IMG/VR virus record: IMGVR_UViG_3300009033_000001
Span: 1-41,432 of that record
Source: a virus
Length of the DNA: 41,432 bases
Strand: one strand, 5' to 3'
Under the pieces are notes generated by a model. That model ran no database searches. It saw nothing but the letters and a program-made list of their open reading frames with translations, and was not told the origin of the DNA. Shown here one piece after another: positions 1,154-41,432 of the stretch (the first letter of the stretch is position 1; each line of letters starts with the position of its first letter). A program made the translations under genes and the position numbers.

Positions 1154-1699
1154 ATGGAATACTCTAAGTTCGACCAACTAATTTACTGGGTTAAGGAAGC
1201 AAACTTACCTGAAGAGGAACAACTAAAGAAAGCCAAAGAGTTGTTTCCCTTGTTTGACACGACACAGAAAAACACGTACAACGACAGGTACCTTACGCCT
1301 TATGATATCGAATGCTTTGCGTACAACCGTTCTTTGGGATTGCCCGTTATTGAAGTCGCAAACTCTATCAGAAAAAGCGCCACATTGTTTAACCGGCTGT
1401 TCCAAGGGGAAGGCTTGTCCTTGGAAACACTTGTTAACTTGTGCGAAGCTGAAGTTTTTGCTGAGGCTGAACTTAAAGCCTCCCATATGAAAGACTTGGA
1501 AAAAACCAAGGGACACGGAGCAAACGTCACTTTCTTAGAGAAGGCGTTTGCTAAACAATATGGCGACAGGAAGCAAATTGACATTAACACTGGTTTTGGT
1601 GCGAAGGACGACGAGGACAACAGTTGGAAAGTAGAGATTGTCCATGTTAAAACCCAACCTAAAATGCGTACAGAAGACAAAGAAGCCTTGGAAAGTTAA
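1154..1699 (+). CDS. terS: Terminase small subunit
   Basis: Probable DNA-recognition subunit of the packaging motor (181 aa). It directly precedes the large terminase. Its C-terminal half, with residues around FLEKAFAKQYGDRKQ, matches the pattern I know from phage small terminases, where a helix-rich core is followed by a tail that contacts the large subunit. The N-terminal part is acidic and helical. The ribosome-binding site before the ATG at 1154 is weak (TAGG). No DNA-binding motif is clear enough to name, so the call rests on position and the C-terminal pattern. The inverted repeat at 1068-1122 is a candidate target. Confidence 0.75.
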   Translation: MEYSKFDQLIYWVKEANLPEEEQLKKAKELFPLFDTTQKNTYNDRYLTPYDIECFAYNRSLGLPVIEVANSIRKSATLFNRLFQGEGLSLETLVNLCEAEVFAEAELKASHMKDLEKTKGHGANVTFLEKAFAKQYGDRKQIDINTGFGAKDDEDNSWKVEIVHVKTQPKMRTEDKEALES

Positions 1700-1702
1700 T
1701 TG

Positions 1703-3166
1703 ATGCCCAAACTTACTTTAACAGATAAACTTGCTCCGTTTTTGACTAAACACAAACGTGTAAAAATAGCGTTTGGTGGTCGTGGAGGAACTAAGTCTGT
1801 TACTATCGCTGATGTTTTGTTGCATCTTGCTTTTCAACAACAATACAAGGTTGGTTGTTTTAGAGAGCACCAAAATACGATTGAAGATTCCGTCCATGCT
1901 TTGTTGGATGAAGAGATTCAGCGCTTGAACATACCTGGTTTCGTCGTCAACGACAAAGAGATTAAACATATCGATGGCGGAAAGTTTAAGTTTAGAGGTT
2001 TAGCAAGGCATATCGGCGGTATTAAATCGTTTCACGGTTTTAAAGTTTTTTGGATTGAAGAAGGACAGTTTTTAAGCGAAACAAGTTTACAGCTTTTGTT
2101 GCCGACACTGCGTGAAAAAGGTTCCGAGCTTTGGGTTACAATGAACCCCTTGTTTGAAGAGGACGCTATTTATGATCGTTACATACTGCCGCACTTAAAT
2201 GAACTCGTGACTGATGGTGTTTACGAAGACGACGAGTGTTACATTGTCTGGACTAACTTTGACGAAAACCCGTGGTTCCCTGAAGTGTTAGAAAAACAGC
2301 GCAAAGCAGATTATGAAAGACTGTCCCGTACGGATTACGATCATATATGGTTAGGTTACTGTGCGAATAAAGTTGACAACGCCCTTATACAACGTGAATG
2401 GTTTGATGCTTGTATTGACGCCCACATTAAACTTGGTTTTGAACCGCGAGGCGTTAAAATACTTGCGCATGACCCTGCTGATATTGGTCCTGACGCTAAT
2501 GCGTTAGCTTACAGACACGGTAGTGTTGTACTGGACCTGGACCAAGATTATGATATTGATATTAATGAAGGTGGTAGTTGGGCCGCTACAAGGGCAATTG
2601 AGTATCAAGTTGACGAATTTGTTTGGGATTGTGATGGTTTAGGTGTTGGTCTTAATGGTCAGTATGAGATGGACTTCAAAAGTAAACGTTGTGTATTGAC
2701 AAACTTTAAAGGCTCCAAAACACCGGACTATCCCGAAGCGAGGTTTGAAGGTGATCTTCATTATGAACAAGGTTTAGTTGAGAAAGTCGAAATTAAGCAG
2801 CGTAAAACTAACAAAGAAGCGCTCAAAAACACCCGCGCGCAGTATTATCTCATGTTGCGAAATCGTATTTACCGAACGTATAGAGCAGTTGTTCATGGGG
2901 AGTACTACGATCCTGATTTATTGTTGTCTTTTTCAAGTAACATGAGGTATATACAACAACTTCGTTTGGAACTAACTCGGATGCCGATTAAACCAAACAA
3001 CAATGGTTTATTTGAGTTGTATACTAAAAAAGAAATGCAGTCAAAGTTTAAGTTTAACTCACCAAATTTATCTGATTCGGTTATGATGAGTTTAAGAACT
3101 GCTCCGTTGGAAATGCAGTACACGTATGTTCCTCGGTCTGTACCGCAGTTAGGTATAAGGAGATAA
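1703..3166 (+). CDS. terL: Terminase large subunit
   Basis: ATPase and nuclease of the DNA-packaging motor (487 aa; P22 gp2 is about 500). The Walker A-like segment is GGRGGTKS near residue 26. A Walker B-like segment, FWIEEGQ, and a coupling segment, VTMNP, follow. An acidic residue in LAHDPADIG begins the RNase H-like nuclease half. The pattern resembles the PBSX/Terminase_3 group. I chose the ATG at 1703, four bases past the terS stop. A TTG one codon earlier is also open. It is probably translationally coupled to terS. Confidence 0.93.
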   Translation: MPKLTLTDKLAPFLTKHKRVKIAFGGRGGTKSVTIADVLLHLAFQQQYKVGCFREHQNTIEDSVHALLDEEIQRLNIPGFVVNDKEIKHIDGGKFKFRGLARHIGGIKSFHGFKVFWIEEGQFLSETSLQLLLPTLREKGSELWVTMNPLFEEDAIYDRYILPHLNELVTDGVYEDDECYIVWTNFDENPWFPEVLEKQRKADYERLSRTDYDHIWLGYCANKVDNALIQREWFDACIDAHIKLGFEPRGVKILAHDPADIGPDANALAYRHGSVVLDLDQDYDIDINEGGSWAATRAIEYQVDEFVWDCDGLGVGLNGQYEMDFKSKRCVLTNFKGSKTPDYPEARFEGDLHYEQGLVEKVEIKQRKTNKEALKNTRAQYYLMLRNRIYRTYRAVVHGEYYDPDLLLSFSSNMRYIQQLRLELTRMPIKPNNNGLFELYTKKEMQSKFKFNSPNLSDSVMMSLRTAPLEMQYTYVPRSVPQLGIRR

Positions 3167-8377: not shown

Positions 8378-9328
8378 ATGACAAAAACTTTGGAAGAAAC
8401 TAAAAAAACTGAGGAAGAAAGTACGGAATCTGTTGAAGAAGAACACGAGGATATTCTTGACGGAATAGATCTTGAGGATATCGATATCGGTACTAACGAT
8501 GACAATGAAGACGATTCTGATGACGCTGACGACGAAGATCCTTTTAGTTTAAAAGAAAAACAGGACGCTGTTCCTTTGGCCAAACATATTGACCTACGTA
8601 ACACATTGAAAGGTAAGTTGAATAAGGCTGAAGAAGAAAATAAGCGTCTGCGGGAACAACTTGCAGCTAAACCGGAGCCAAAGGAACTTAAAAGACCAAA
8701 GCGTTCTGCATTCGAGTCAGATGAAGCATACGAATCGGCACTTGATAAGTACGAAAATGACCTTATTGATGATCGTTTTCAACGTTTATCATTAAAAGAT
8801 CGTCAAAGTCGTCAGGTTCAAGAACAACAGCGGAAAGTCACTGAAAATGTTGATGCGCACTACAGTAGGGCGGCTAATTTAGTCGATAAGTCGGGCATTA
8901 AACCTGAACTGTATAAAAACGCTGACACGACTGTTCGTCAGGCATTGGATGAAGTTTACCCAGGACAAGGTGACGAGTATACTGACCGTTTGATATCCTT
9001 CATGGGAGAAGGGTCTGAGAAAGTTATGTACCATTTAGGGGTAACACCCGACGCGGTTGCAAAGCTTAAGACGCTTCTTGTGCAGGATTCGTCAGGATTG
9101 TCCGCCGCAGTTTTTTTAGGACAAGCCAAAGAAAAATTAGTAAACCCAAAGAAAACACGATCAAACGCACCAGCACCAGCACCAACAGCTAAAGGAAACA
9201 TCGGTGCGTCAGGCGTTGCCAAGGCTAAAAAAGCTTACGACGCAGCGCATAAAAAAGGTAATGGTCAACTTGCCTTTGACATTAAGTATAAGGCTAAAAA
9301 AGCTGGTGTTGATACGTCAAAATGGTAA
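8378..9328 (+). CDS. Capsid scaffolding protein
   Basis: Internal scaffold that guides coat assembly and then leaves the procapsid. The 316-aa product is very acidic over the first 65 residues and then has a coiled-coil stretch. The end is basic, with a Lys-rich helical C-terminus after a Pro/Ala linker. That matches P22 scaffold (303 aa), whose basic C-terminal hairpin binds coat. It sits between portal and coat. The call rests on composition, size and position. Confidence 0.85.
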   Translation: MTKTLEETKKTEEESTESVEEEHEDILDGIDLEDIDIGTNDDNEDDSDDADDEDPFSLKEKQDAVPLAKHIDLRNTLKGKLNKAEEENKRLREQLAAKPEPKELKRPKRSAFESDEAYESALDKYENDLIDDRFQRLSLKDRQSRQVQEQQRKVTENVDAHYSRAANLVDKSGIKPELYKNADTTVRQALDEVYPGQGDEYTDRLISFMGEGSEKVMYHLGVTPDAVAKLKTLLVQDSSGLSAAVFLGQAKEKLVNPKKTRSNAPAPAPTAKGNIGASGVAKAKKAYDAAHKKGNGQLAFDIKYKAKKAGVDTSKW

Positions 9329-27566: not shown

Positions 27567-27939
27567 TGTTGTCTCCTATAAAGGCGATATTATTTTTGTA
27601 AACTACTGAAAGAACATAGTTTTGTTTTTGTTTCAATGCAGAGCAAGCAAAACCAATTTGCCCAAACTGCCATACTAAATCATCTTCAAGCAGTTTTAGG
27701 CTTTTTTTCTTGAGCCTTTTAACTTCGATTAAACAGTAAGCTTGCTCTTTGACAATAAGAATGTCAGGAAAACCTATTTGATTAGTCGTATCGATACGGT
27801 TAAACGACCACCCAGCTTTATTGGTTTTCTTTTTTATAAAATTGTAGCTGTCTTCTTCAAGGTCAAACCAAGTGCTCACTTTCATTGACCGACAAGTGAG
27901 CACTTGGTTGAAAAAGTTATAGGTTTTTTTGAAAGGCAT
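27520..27939 (-). CDS. VRR-NUC-type PD-(D/E)XK nuclease
   Basis: Small structure-specific nuclease (139 aa) of the VRR-NUC/Holliday-junction-resolvase type. Motif residues are D59 in GFPDIL, E72 and K74 in CLIEVKRLK, and Q91 in WQFGQIG. It probably resolves branched DNA before packaging. The start is uncertain. The ATG at 27939 overlaps the previous stop (TGATG) but has no clear ribosome-binding site. A second ATG at 27885 lies in the loop of a perfect 16-bp inverted repeat (27866-27909). Confidence 0.82.
   Translation of the reverse strand: MPFKKTYNFFNQVLTCRSMKVSTWFDLEEDSYNFIKKKTNKAGWSFNRIDTTNQIGFPDILIVKEQAYCLIEVKRLKKKSLKLLEDDLVWQFGQIGFACSALKQKQNYVLSVVYKNNIAFIGDNNVQSIISDTFFTGLI
27866..27909. 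repeat. Perfect 16-bp inverted repeat inside the VRR-NUC gene
   Basis: The arm AACCAAGTGCTCACTT (27866-27881) and its exact complement (27894-27909) flank a 12-base loop. On the coding strand the loop contains ATG 27885, an in-frame start candidate. Such a stem in mRNA could control initiation. Confidence 0.85.
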
Positions 27940-28706
27940 CAATACTTTACGTCAGATGTGTCCTGTTCTTTTGCCGATGATGATGTTTCTTCAAGCTGGG
28001 CGTAATCAACTTGTTTGTTCGGGATAGCTTTTCGTTCAGCCATTACACTTTCAAGAAGATCTGGTGTAACGAACTCTTTAAATGTAAACTTCGGTCCAAA
28101 CCAGGAGTGTTCCCCTTTGGTCATCTCAACCGTGTCAAGCTCCCAAACCATCATATGCGGCGCTGCTTTCTGACTTGTTCCGGGAATATATGTTGTCATT
28201 AGCATTCGATTTAACCGCCGGGCTTCTTTAAGAAACGTTGAAGCTAAAGCAATAATGCAAATCTCATCAGACAAGTAGTCCGGCAGCATAACATAGTACA
28301 TGTACGTGTCAAAAAGCTGGTTTTTTGAATCCTTGTCAATAAGATCCATCGAACCTTTATCGTTAAGAATGTTAACGTACTGCGGGTTGTTTTCAACTTC
28401 CTCCGGTGCGTGTGCTGCTACATAGCCACCGCGATTTGGCTTCCACTCGATGAAAAGCCGTTCAAATTTTCCAATTACAACGCGCAATGGTCTTGTGTAC
28501 AGTGTTCCGTTAATGCTGTTGCAGATGTCCCCTTCGTCTGCTTCGGCGATGTACTCCGCTTTGCTTTTCTTAAGCTGCGGCGATAACGATTGCAAAATAC
28601 GGATAAAAGGAATCGCCATCGTGTTCATGTTAATTCCTTCGTAACCTTCAACGTCATTCGCGAACTGTTTAAGGTGGTCATAGGACGGTGTTTCTTTTTT
28701 AGCCAT
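27939..28706 (-). CDS. Conserved phage protein, candidate ssDNA-binding protein
   Basis: A 255-aa protein. The pattern PFIRILQSLSPQLKKSKAEY, EADEGDICNSINGTLYTRPL and EWKPNRGGYVAAH is one I know from many phage replication modules. Its members are usually left unnamed or called ssDNA-binding. The last 30 residues are acidic and disordered-looking, as in SSB tails, though without a classical tip. No other SSB is visible in the genome. The ribosome-binding site is AAGGAGAT. Confidence 0.6.
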   Translation of the reverse strand: MAKKETPSYDHLKQFANDVEGYEGINMNTMAIPFIRILQSLSPQLKKSKAEYIAEADEGDICNSINGTLYTRPLRVVIGKFERLFIEWKPNRGGYVAAHAPEEVENNPQYVNILNDKGSMDLIDKDSKNQLFDTYMYYVMLPDYLSDEICIIALASTFLKEARRLNRMLMTTYIPGTSQKAAPHMMVWELDTVEMTKGEHSWFGPKFTFKEFVTPDLLESVMAERKAIPNKQVDYAQLEETSSSAKEQDTSDVKY

Positions 28707-28717
28707 GTCTATCTCCT

Positions 28718-29278
28718 TTATTTTATCTTGGTTTTAAAGTATGTGAAGATGTTCACCATATCTTTGTCTATTTCAGCAACGGTCATTTTTGCAACAGAAC
28801 CTTTTTTCAAGCCGCAAAGCTCTTTAAAGTACGCCCCAAGCGTTTTGTGATGCACGGACTCTTTGACCTCCGGCACAAGGCCGTAGTTTTCTTCAAAGTC
28901 TCGCATGATCCTGTGCAAAATGTTCTGCGGGATCTTTCCAAGCTCAAGCGTAGTTTTTATCAAGGCGTCATCACCACGGGACTCTAAAAACTTGGTCAGT
29001 TTACCCTGGTCTTTTATTGACGCATTTAGCTCTTCACTGTAGCTGACTTCTTCCCCATTGTCCAGCTTAAAAGAAGTCATCCCAACAGACGTCATAGCGT
29101 CAGGAATAAGCTCCATTGAAACTTTGTTAAATTGTTTCTTTAACTCTTTTGCTTCTTTCTCAGCTTCTTTGTACGCTTTTTCTTTTTCTTTGTACAATTC
29201 AGCCAAACCACGAAGTTTTGTTAAAGAGTCCTCTTGCGGTAGGTCTTCGTTGTTCAGTAAGTGGTCGTAGTTTTCCAT
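28718..29278 (-). CDS. Conserved phage replication-module protein with coiled coil (186 aa)
   Basis: The N-terminal half is a strongly charged coiled coil (ELYKEKEKAYKEAEKEAKEL, about residues 28-52). The C-terminal half (LELGKIPQNILHRIMRDFEE, then VHHKTLGAYFKELCG) is a pattern seen in phages next to the gene described at 27939-28706. The exact role is unknown. A partner or loader for the DNA-binding protein is a reasonable guess from the constant pairing. Confidence 0.65.
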   Translation of the reverse strand: MENYDHLLNNEDLPQEDSLTKLRGLAELYKEKEKAYKEAEKEAKELKKQFNKVSMELIPDAMTSVGMTSFKLDNGEEVSYSEELNASIKDQGKLTKFLESRGDDALIKTTLELGKIPQNILHRIMRDFEENYGLVPEVKESVHHKTLGAYFKELCGLKKGSVAKMTVAEIDKDMVNIFTYFKTKIK

Positions 29279-38390: not shown

Positions 38391-38735
38391 TCATGTGTTG
38401 ATGTTAAAATACGCTTCAATACGCTTTTTACAGTCCTTACAACGTTCGCGCAAGTCAAGCATAGATTGTGTTTGATTGACGTATACAACGGGGTAAGAAC
38501 TAACATCAGGTTGCACATAAGGGCTTTTATGGTTCATACCGCGCAGTCTCATTTCAACCGATAACACGTCATGACGTTTCTTCATCGATTGCGGTTCAAT
38601 CTGTACAACGGGGCTTATACGTCCCGCAATGCTGTGGCCTTTAACAAAATTATGCCGGTGTTTGTGTATCTCTCCATGTTCGCCTAACAAATGCTTATCA
38701 CAAAGCAATCCCGGCGGTATCATCCACATGCGCAT
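38391..38735 (-). CDS. Pyrimidine-dimer glycosylase (T4 endonuclease V)-like protein
   Basis: A 114-aa protein. CDKHLLGEHGEIHK aligns by eye with ADQHLMAEYRELPR of T4 DenV, including the catalytic Glu (E23 in DenV). KKRHDVLSVEMRLRGMN aligns with RKRQIELIAECLKRGFN. In DenV the attacking group is the amino group of Thr2, but here residue 2 is Arg (MRMWM). So the fold is likely but the glycosylase activity is doubtful. The last 20 residues hold CKDC. The ribosome-binding site is AGGGGA. Confidence 0.7.
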   Translation of the reverse strand: MRMWMIPPGLLCDKHLLGEHGEIHKHRHNFVKGHSIAGRISPVVQIEPQSMKKRHDVLSVEMRLRGMNHKSPYVQPDVSSYPVVYVNQTQSMLDLRERCKDCKKRIEAYFNINT

Positions 38736-38770: not shown

Positions 38771-38814
38771 AGGACAACCTTAATAACTGTTACTACGGTT
38801 ATTAAGGTTGTCCT
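38771..38814. repeat. Perfect 17-bp inverted repeat
   Basis: The arms AGGACAACCTTAATAAC (38771-38787) and its exact complement (38798-38814) flank a 10-base loop. The right arm contains the stop codon of the 38802-39296 gene. No T-run follows on the minus strand, so it is not a classical terminator. It may be a processing or mRNA-stability hairpin. Confidence 0.8.
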
Positions 38815-39296
38815 GCCGTCACCTCTCGTTTTGCTCGTTCGATATAATCAATTGTATCTTCCATGTTGTATGACTGAAAGACTATTCCTCCACCATATTG
38901 TTTGTTATGGAATTTTCTTCCACCTATGGTGTTCATGAGCTTGACAACGCGAGCGTATCTTTCGGGCAAGGTAATGCTATAGTCCTTCCATACGTATGGT
39001 TCGCATTTAAGAAAATGGAGAACGTAGCGCGGATTGCCGTTAACGTCGCTATTCACACGTGTATACTCATATTCGGACCGATCATAATGACATAATTGTT
39101 TGAGTTCTGTCTCATCGAACTTTGCAAAGTCGCGTAAACCATGTTTAACCCTGACTTCAACACGCTCCGGATCGCGCTTCCATGTTTTAACGCTGGTTAC
39201 TTTGGCGCGCATGGCTGTGCCATCGGCATTGGTTTTGTATGCATGGTAGATTGTCTGGCCTTGTTTTAGTGCTTTGGCTTCCTTTAATGTTATCAT
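38802..39296 (-). CDS. Unknown protein (164 aa)
   Basis: Not recognised. The N-terminus (TLKEAKALKQGQTIYHAYKT, then RAKVTSVKTWKRDP) looks like a small SH3-like barrel often seen in phage proteins. The C-terminal half is alpha/beta and basic. AAGGAA precedes the ATG. The stop codon is inside a 17-bp inverted repeat. Confidence 0.65.
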   Translation of the reverse strand: MITLKEAKALKQGQTIYHAYKTNADGTAMRAKVTSVKTWKRDPERVEVRVKHGLRDFAKFDETELKQLCHYDRSEYEYTRVNSDVNGNPRYVLHFLKCEPYVWKDYSITLPERYARVVKLMNTIGGRKFHNKQYGGGIVFQSYNMEDTIDYIERAKREVTAGQP

Positions 39297-39995: not shown

Positions 39996-40457
39996 TTATC
40001 GCAGTAAATCCCGTACCATGTTAAATTTGCGCGCGTCAGCGTTCAGCCGTTCGGAGCGTTCGGTATGATACTTCAATTCTAATTCAAGCGATTTAATCCG
40101 TTCGGTTTTTACGGCGTTATCTCTTTCAAGCGCGCTCATGTTCTCTTCACGCCGTTCGATATCCTGCATCCGTTCGGCGTGCTCAGTTGCGAGCCGTGTT
40201 TCTTCTTCAACTATTATAGACTGCCAGACACATTTTTTAATGATATCAAGGAATGTGCCTTTACTAAGGCAATGACAGGAAACCCAAAGGAAGTTGCCAC
40301 GCTCGTTTTTATTCATCACATGAACTGCATCAAATATTTGATCCATTGTTGAATGCCCGATAATGTCTTGGTATTCTAACATTTCATTTGCTCCGTGAGC
40401 TATCCCGTTTTTAACGAAGTATTCAACTGCTTCTTGTATCGTTGTGAACTTAGTCAT
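39996..40457 (-). CDS. First gene of the accessory operon, coiled-coil protein (153 aa)
   Basis: Not recognised. Residues 1-80 form a folded domain (FTTIQEAVEYFVKNGIAHGA). The rest is a long charged coiled coil (EREENMSALERDNAVKTERI is typical). I chose ATG 40457 with GGGGG eight bases upstream. An ATG at 40472 is in frame but has no ribosome-binding site. As promoter-proximal gene it is probably expressed immediately after infection. Confidence 0.65.
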   Translation of the reverse strand: MTKFTTIQEAVEYFVKNGIAHGANEMLEYQDIIGHSTMDQIFDAVHVMNKNERGNFLWVSCHCLSKGTFLDIIKKCVWQSIIVEEETRLATEHAERMQDIERREENMSALERDNAVKTERIKSLELELKYHTERSERLNADARKFNMVRDLLR

Positions 40458-40471
40458 GTGTCTTGCCCCCA

Positions 40472-40490
40472 TTTGTTTAAGTTATCGTTT
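40472..40490 (-). promoter_or_regulatory. 19-base leader element, copy 2
   Basis: Identical to 529-547 in the same orientation relative to its operon. It lies between the predicted transcription start (about 40500) and the first gene. Confidence 0.5.
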
Positions 40491-40506
40491 GTCAACTTCA
40501 TAACTC

Positions 40507-40535
40507 AAGCTATCAAGGCTTTTAAGGTTTGTCAA
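40507..40535 (-). promoter_or_regulatory. Leftward promoter of the accessory operon
   Basis: On the minus strand there is a consensus -35 box TTGACA (40530-40535), a 17-base spacer and an extended -10, TGATAGCTT, with the hexamer at 40507-40512. A second TTGACA lies at 40490-40495 but has no good -10 partner. Confidence 0.55.
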
Positions 40536-40718
40536 CAATTATTTTCAACGTTATGTGATTTATTTTAACGTAGGTTGGACGCGGGATTCGTCAACGCCTT
40601 ATTGACAAGCGTTAACGAAGTTATGTGTTGTTTGAGCTTTTTGTGGGCAATAGAGACGCACGCGATTGTGCGTTAAGTGATAGGGTGTGCTTTGTCTTTG
40701 ATTGTCTAAAAATACCGT
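40536..40718. other. Non-coding stretch between promoter and repeat array
   Basis: No gene seen. It contains a 6-bp stem hairpin, ACGCAC / GTGCGT (40656-40673), and A/T-rich sequence. Confidence 0.4.
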
Positions 40719-41277
40719 AAGTCAATAGAATCATTGGATAACTGGTGTATTTTCTTGTAAGTTGTTGAAATCATTGAGGAATAAATGGTATATACGGAGA
40801 ACATTCGTGAACATTTTCAAGTTGCTGAAATCATTAGATAATCAGAGTTTAGCTATAATGTAGCTGCATACAAAAATGTAATTTGTTGAAAAATATAATA
40901 ATTTCAATATGTTATAATTTACGTAAGCGTTGTCAAAGGTTACGACTAAAAAAGTTAAGTTGTTGAAATCATTGGGTTTAGAACACGTGAACAAACGTAA
41001 AAACCCTGATGTTCATGGTTAAGTTATTGATATTATTGGATATATTTAAAAATAGAACACTTACAAGGATTTTTGAGATTTGGTGAAGGTTGGGGGAAAA
41101 TTGTACCGCGCCATGAAACAGCGTCACATAATGTGTGACAACTTTTTTGCCTATTTTTTGAAACGAATGTAAGTGTGTTCATCGTGTTCTAAACCTAATG
41201 ATTTCAAGCACTTAGCTGTGAACATTCTTGTTTTTGTGAATGTTCATGTGTTCTAAATGTAATGATTTCAACGAGTT
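40719..41277. repeat. Iteron-like repeat array, direct then inverted
   Basis: The core consensus is AAGTTGTTGAAATCATTGG. Plus-orientation copies: 40719-40737 (diverged), 40759-40777, 40819-40837, 40880-40899 (partial), 40957-40976 and 41021-41040 (diverged). Minus-orientation copies: 40899-40914 (partial), 41194-41213 and 41258-41277. Spacing is mostly 40-64 bases. Some copies are followed by a second conserved element (GTTTAGAACAC or its complement). No gene overlaps. The layout fits a replication origin, partition site or operator array. Confidence 0.75.
41123..41139. repeat. Hairpin at the centre of the repeat array
   Basis: The arms GTCACA and TGTGAC enclose five bases. A run of six T follows at 41143-41148, so it resembles a weak rightward terminator. 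It lies between the plus- and minus-oriented iterons. Confidence 0.5.
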
Positions 41278-41432
41278 ACCTTTTTAGTGTTACAAGTGTT
41301 GGCGATGCGTTTTGAGACGCATCCAATTTGTTTTGCGTATACGCATAACATTGTCAGGCCCTTATAGGACAACTGTGAAAAGAGCGGCAGCGCCTTATAG
41401 GTTGTTAACGGTTCCATCGATAGTTGCCGCGC
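41278..41432. other. Right-end non-coding stretch with hairpins
   Basis: It holds a 7-bp stem, GATGCGT / ACGCATC (41304-41323), the palindrome TGCGTATACGCA (41334-41345), and two direct copies of CCTTATAGG (41360-41368 and 41393-41401). No gene seen. Confidence 0.5.

Follow-up and report, generated by a model that had tools for sequence, protein, structure and literature searches.

The gap between the divergent early and late gene sets of this 41.4 kb phage is occupied by an array of repeats that, judging from their sequence, setting and distribution, are probably sites for host IHF or for a DNABII relative of the same specificity. The array motif, GTAASYNNTTGAWATCATTGGATA, occurs as eight sites plus one degenerate copy at 40717-41279, where the chance expectation is none; the full motif used to place the sites is 24 bp long. 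The motif including its TCATT extension is written TAASYNNTTGAWATCATT. The window, meaning the whole stretch of DNA analysed, is the entire virus record of 41,432 bp, with a terminase of the Sf6/P22 type. Late genes run rightward from 1154 and early and replication genes run leftward, ending at 40472; no ORF of at least 60 aa is found across 40473-41432. Flanking genes and sites are as follows, WWTCARNNNNTTR being a pattern taken from the in vivo IHF consensus.

1154..1699, + strand: first late gene, a putative small terminase by position only
1700..3166, + strand: large terminase (TerL), Sf6/P22-like
39996..40472, - strand: first early gene on the left side of the array, 158 aa, without a family assignment
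40717..40740, + strand: degenerate motif copy GTAAGTCAATAGAATCATTGGATA, no fit to WWTCARNNNNTTR
40757..40780, + strand: IHF-type site 1, reverse complement includes TTTCAACAACTTA
40817..40840, + strand: IHF-type site 2 (TTTCAGCAACTTG)
40877..40900, + strand: IHF-type site 3 (TTTCAACAAATTA), overlapping site 4
40892..40915, - strand: IHF-type site 4 (TTTCAATATGTTA), with similar copies in the relatives L006 (2520) and L053 (661)
40955..40978, + strand: IHF-type site 5 (TTTCAACAACTTA)
41019..41042, + strand: IHF-type site 6 (TATCAATAACTTA), a strict WATCARNNNNTTR match
41192..41215, - strand: IHF-type site 7 (TTTCAAGCACTTA)
41256..41279, - strand: IHF-type site 8 (TTTCAACGAGTTA)

The original prediction, which described repeats in a gene-free region that run direct on its left side and inverted on its right, is borne out as to the array itself: its 19-mer, AAGTTGTTGAAATCATTGG, gives five copies with three or fewer mismatches, all within 40759-41213, versus 0 in 100 dinucleotide shuffles. 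The repeat unit exceeds that 19-mer, with conserved GTAA before it and GGATA after it. The layout holds overall, sites left of 41100 being direct and the two right of it inverted, except that the overlapping site at 40892 lies in opposite orientation among the direct copies. Same-strand neighbors are spaced 40-78 bp apart, several near 60-64, and a stretch of 77-78% A/T at 40840-40940 lies within the array.

Relatives were found via TerL. In L006, whose TerL is 53% identical, a comparable array occupies the corresponding interval between the early genes and terS: six sites lie within 2188-2543 and a further one is at 2899, the orientations running two plus and then four minus. A single clear copy, GTAACCTATTGAAATTATT, occupies the same gap in G002 (61%), whose terminal overlap of 127 bp indicates that it is circularly closed. 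In L009 (49%), gene order is the same and the gap holds unrelated repeats (at 8725-8940, a 47-bp pair, three 25-bp units and an inverted copy). The single copy in G002, a close relative, and the different repeats of L009 weigh against the IHF reading. A BLAST search with the region found no homologous array in phage records. The original prediction made conservation in relatives and a frequency above that of shuffled sequence its tests, and the motif is both conserved and commoner than in shuffles.

A second element follows the site in both the window and L006 (TAGAACACGATGAACAC vs TAGGAGACACGATGACAC). The second boxes and other elements within the array are these.

40909..40936, - strand: sigma-70-like promoter match directed toward the early genes, weak, from a consensus scan only
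40981..40993, + strand: second box GAACACGTGAACA, adjoining site 5
41055..41060, + strand: partial second box GAACAC, adjoining site 6 at a distance greater by about one helical turn
41123..41139, + strand: short terminator-like hairpin
41176..41189, - strand: second box GAACACGATGAACA, adjoining site 7, with ACACGATGA common to L006
41241..41253, - strand: second box GAACACATGAACA, adjoining site 8

The hairpin, which had been given a central place in the array, is present but unremarkable, folding no better than shuffles (z -0.45); it is flagged among terminator-like matches, of which the array region has three against 0.8 expected. Because GGATA/GGAGA follows the motif in L006, the repeats were also weighed as promoters used by a single-subunit RNA polymerase of phage type; this was rejected, as no such polymerase was seen among the scanned proteins and the sites converge.

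In vivo, the E. coli IHF consensus is WWTCARSnnnTTA and TAAnnnnTTGATW (PMC8407004). The reverse complement of the array motif, AATGATWTCAANNNSTTA, includes WWTCAANNNNTTA, and the window array conforms to the in vivo form WWTCARnnnnTTR / TAAnnnnTTGATW. There are eight matches to WWTCARNNNNTTR in 601 bp of array versus 0.40 expected, a count reached in 0 of 1000 shuffles; L006 has six versus 0.15 expected, likewise not reached in 1000 shuffles. The strict form WATCARNNNNTTR is matched by one of the eight window sites and by four L006 sites. The array shares with known E. coli and lambda sites (attP H1/H2/H', oriC IBS, Rac attL) the same YAA-N4-TTGA core and spacing in an asymmetric site, likewise placed at control, origin and att regions. 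It differs from them in an extra conserved TCATT, which lies outside the IHF consensus, in having W at consensus position 2, and in that the left-side A-tract typical of strong IHF sites is missing from most window copies. TCATT is the main doubt about the IHF reading, against which the missing A-tract and the single strict match in the window also weigh. The A-tract is a non-obligatory enhancer of affinity (PMC8421141). Many other viral sites have T-runs at the appropriate distance.

With a matrix derived from the window, L006 and L053 sites, the Rac-prophage attL/ttcA site, which is bound by IHF in vivo (PMC8407004), comes first of 3956 positions with a lead of more than 11 bits, and lambda H1 comes ninth of 96,958. 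For six known IHF sites in exact register (lambda H1, H2, H', Mu, Rac and oriC), none of 1000 column-permuted matrices did as well, while under a lenient null allowing permuted matrices any offset within 10 bp, 51 of 1000 did. A looser matrix test, confined to lambda attP, did not reach significance (337/1000), so that the exact-register result is the one relied on here; M13 showed no agreement.

The unit had been taken for an unfamiliar phage motif; rather than a phage iteron of unknown kind, it is a site of wide distribution that agrees with the IHF consensus and follows the occurrence of IHF in hosts. At least 119 IMG/VR contigs, versus 18 for the reversed control, have a spaced pair of TTGAWATCATT cores (separation 40-70 bp), and the spacing of such pairs is helically phased (period 10.5-11, p about 3e-5). 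The contigs look diverse, some loci lying beside T4-like clamp-loader genes and some having phage capsid gene clusters; no gene family is common to more than six array-bearing loci, which points to a host protein. Among 204 distinct viral sites, selected by the TTGAWATCATT 11-mer core only, TAA stands exactly four bases upstream in 130, with 0-4 at each other offset, and so rebuilds TAAnnnnTTGAwW. Neither the window nor most array-bearing records encode a DNABII gene, so that a phage-encoded binder of that family was rejected and a host protein would be needed. One contig with its own DNABII gene, L128 (IMGVR_UViG_3300033146_002252), is AT-rich, has two motif arrays beside WG-repeat-like genes, and may be non-viral.

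In bacterial genomes, the single motif has 53 matches versus 3 for the reversed control in 299 Pseudomonadota (about 18-fold enrichment), and 22 versus 18, or no enrichment, in 296 Bacteroidota. Of 21 Pseudomonadota sampled, 13 had IHF-alpha above its cut-off, each with 110 bits or more, against 0 of 21 Bacteroidota. At the level of phyla, the motif is enriched only where IHF-alpha is present. Chromosomal matches are intergenic in 23 of 29 cases; one adjoins an integrase-like gene. Two spaced copies occur in each of three alphaproteobacterial contigs, adjoining genes that, from sequence features, we take to encode replication ATPases. In four of the 29 chromosomal matches (L328, L337, L343 and L345, at 1501-1518) the motif lies flush with the 3' end of a tRNA gene (two Arg, one Gly, one Thr), in the same register, probably reflecting the att-site architecture of integrated elements; IHF assists integrases at tRNA 3' ends. 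Elsewhere, four Pseudomonadota genomes (L332-L335, around 1501) have in common AACGCC(A/G)GC(T/C)TAACYCTTTGAAATCATT, a conserved chromosomal site that in three of the four immediately precedes small ORFs, resembling one another, of secreted-protein-like type, and one genome (G077, seven contigs) has identical TAACAGGTTGAAACTATT at seven places, probably a mobile repeat.

A fairly unlikely alternative is that some other conserved proteobacterial DNA-binding protein, with the site TAASYCATTGAWATCATTGR, is exploited by phages, prophages and islands. TCATT is conserved, and the enrichment in genomes depends on it (permuting it left 8 independent matches, plus seven copies of one repeat, instead of 53), positions beyond the IHF consensus are informative in the 204 viral sites, and lambda H' and H2, which do not have TCATT, score poorly with the matrix. 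Against such a protein are the exact YAA-N4-TTGA geometry of IHF, the first rank of a site occupied by IHF in vivo, the tRNA-abutting positions next to integrases, and the correlation with IHF-alpha; we know of no candidate protein with this motif. Either TCATT is a specific left half that replaces the A-tract in strong natural sites, or another protein is involved. The left arm of an IHF site is the first to be bound (PMC8421141). The motif suggests that the natural IHF recognition sequence is longer than the textbook consensus. A broader proposal, which we regard as doubtful though a little less so, is that TAASYCATTGAWATCATTGR is a 20-bp bipartite site read by another widespread proteobacterial protein or by an extended mode of IHF, and that many unrelated phages and mobile elements array it at their control regions.

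If the repeats are IHF sites, IHF dimers would bind at sites spaced roughly whole helical turns apart, and sharp bending at each would compact about 550 bp into a folded nucleoprotein complex. Folding would align the adjacent GAACAC-n-TGAACA boxes in register, these presumably being bound by a phage protein or a second host protein, and the folded region would switch on early transcription, open a replication origin, or both. The likeliest picture is of host IHF bending up to eight phased sites and placing a second factor on these boxes, which would control the early promoter and perhaps an origin too. Multiple IHF sites in a DNA molecule lead to its bridging and condensation (PMC8421141). Caulobacter GTA promoters are co-bound and activated by IHF together with GafY, according to ChIP-seq and mutation (PMC11150451). 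IHF is there joined by another specific protein, at a promoter of phage type, which makes it a direct precedent for the proposed mechanism; the window, analysed by its sequence, has many more sites.

Several IHF sites within one short control region are also found in phages at lambda pL and attP and in the f1 replication enhancer. The window resembles these, but has eight sites, a direct and inverted arrangement, a lytic podovirus-type genome and a second repeated box. If the favored reading is right, a host architectural protein would be a common key to the control regions of many phages that are unrelated and mostly uncultured, and searches for phased IHF-type arrays could point to promoters or origins in phages.

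A conventional iteron origin, in which an initiator encoded by the phage would attach to the repeats and melt adjacent A/T-rich DNA, is distinctly unlikely. Like the iterons of lambda O and Rep plasmids, the repeats are asymmetric, non-coding and near replication genes; relatives have repeats in the same gap, the alphaproteobacterial copies adjoin the presumed replication ATPase genes, and the array contains the A/T-rich stretch. The 40-78 bp spacing and mixed orientation, however, are unlike tandem iterons, the motif is also present in unrelated phages and bacterial genomes, no gene family is common to more than six of its array-bearing loci, the array region has no DnaA box, and no dedicated initiator was found among about 30 scanned proteins, several early-region proteins being without a family match. 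The sign of GC skew switches at the early/late divergence, at the gene-free array gap, which is a point in favor of an origin, and again at the convergence near 21 kb; because both switches match transcription direction, skew alone is no proof of an origin.

As in the original prediction, no integrase, repressor or ParAB gene was recognised, Rfam, tRNA and Pfam/PHROGs searches giving none among about 30 scanned proteins. Of the proposed origin, regulatory or centromere-like site, the part with support is a candidate regulatory or origin region that binds protein: it lies in the gap of divergent transcription, at the skew switch, a relative keeps the position, and arrays in other contigs are helically phased. 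A centromere-like or packaging (pac) site is highly improbable: the repeats are in non-coding DNA and, on a circular genome, would be some 1.9 kb upstream of terL, but ParA/ParB were not seen among the scanned proteins, the motif occurs in many contigs without such genes, and pac in Sf6/P22-type phages lies in or near terS.

A literature text search returned no relevant paper on the motif. Some early-gene products of the window (38391-38735, 38802-39296 and 27939-29278) resemble pyrimidine-dimer glycosylase, Staphylococcus phage TreK and cyanophage Pam3 gp33/gp34. A leader, TTTGTTTAAGTTATCGTTT, at 40472-40489, upstream of the early gene at 40472, is repeated at 529-546 at the opposite end of the record, upstream of a possible small minus-strand gene (about 334-517/579). 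Directly after the small minus-strand ORF, at 241-273, lies a strong, intrinsic-terminator-like hairpin, GCCCCAGTTAACTTGAGTGTTAACTGGGGCTTT.
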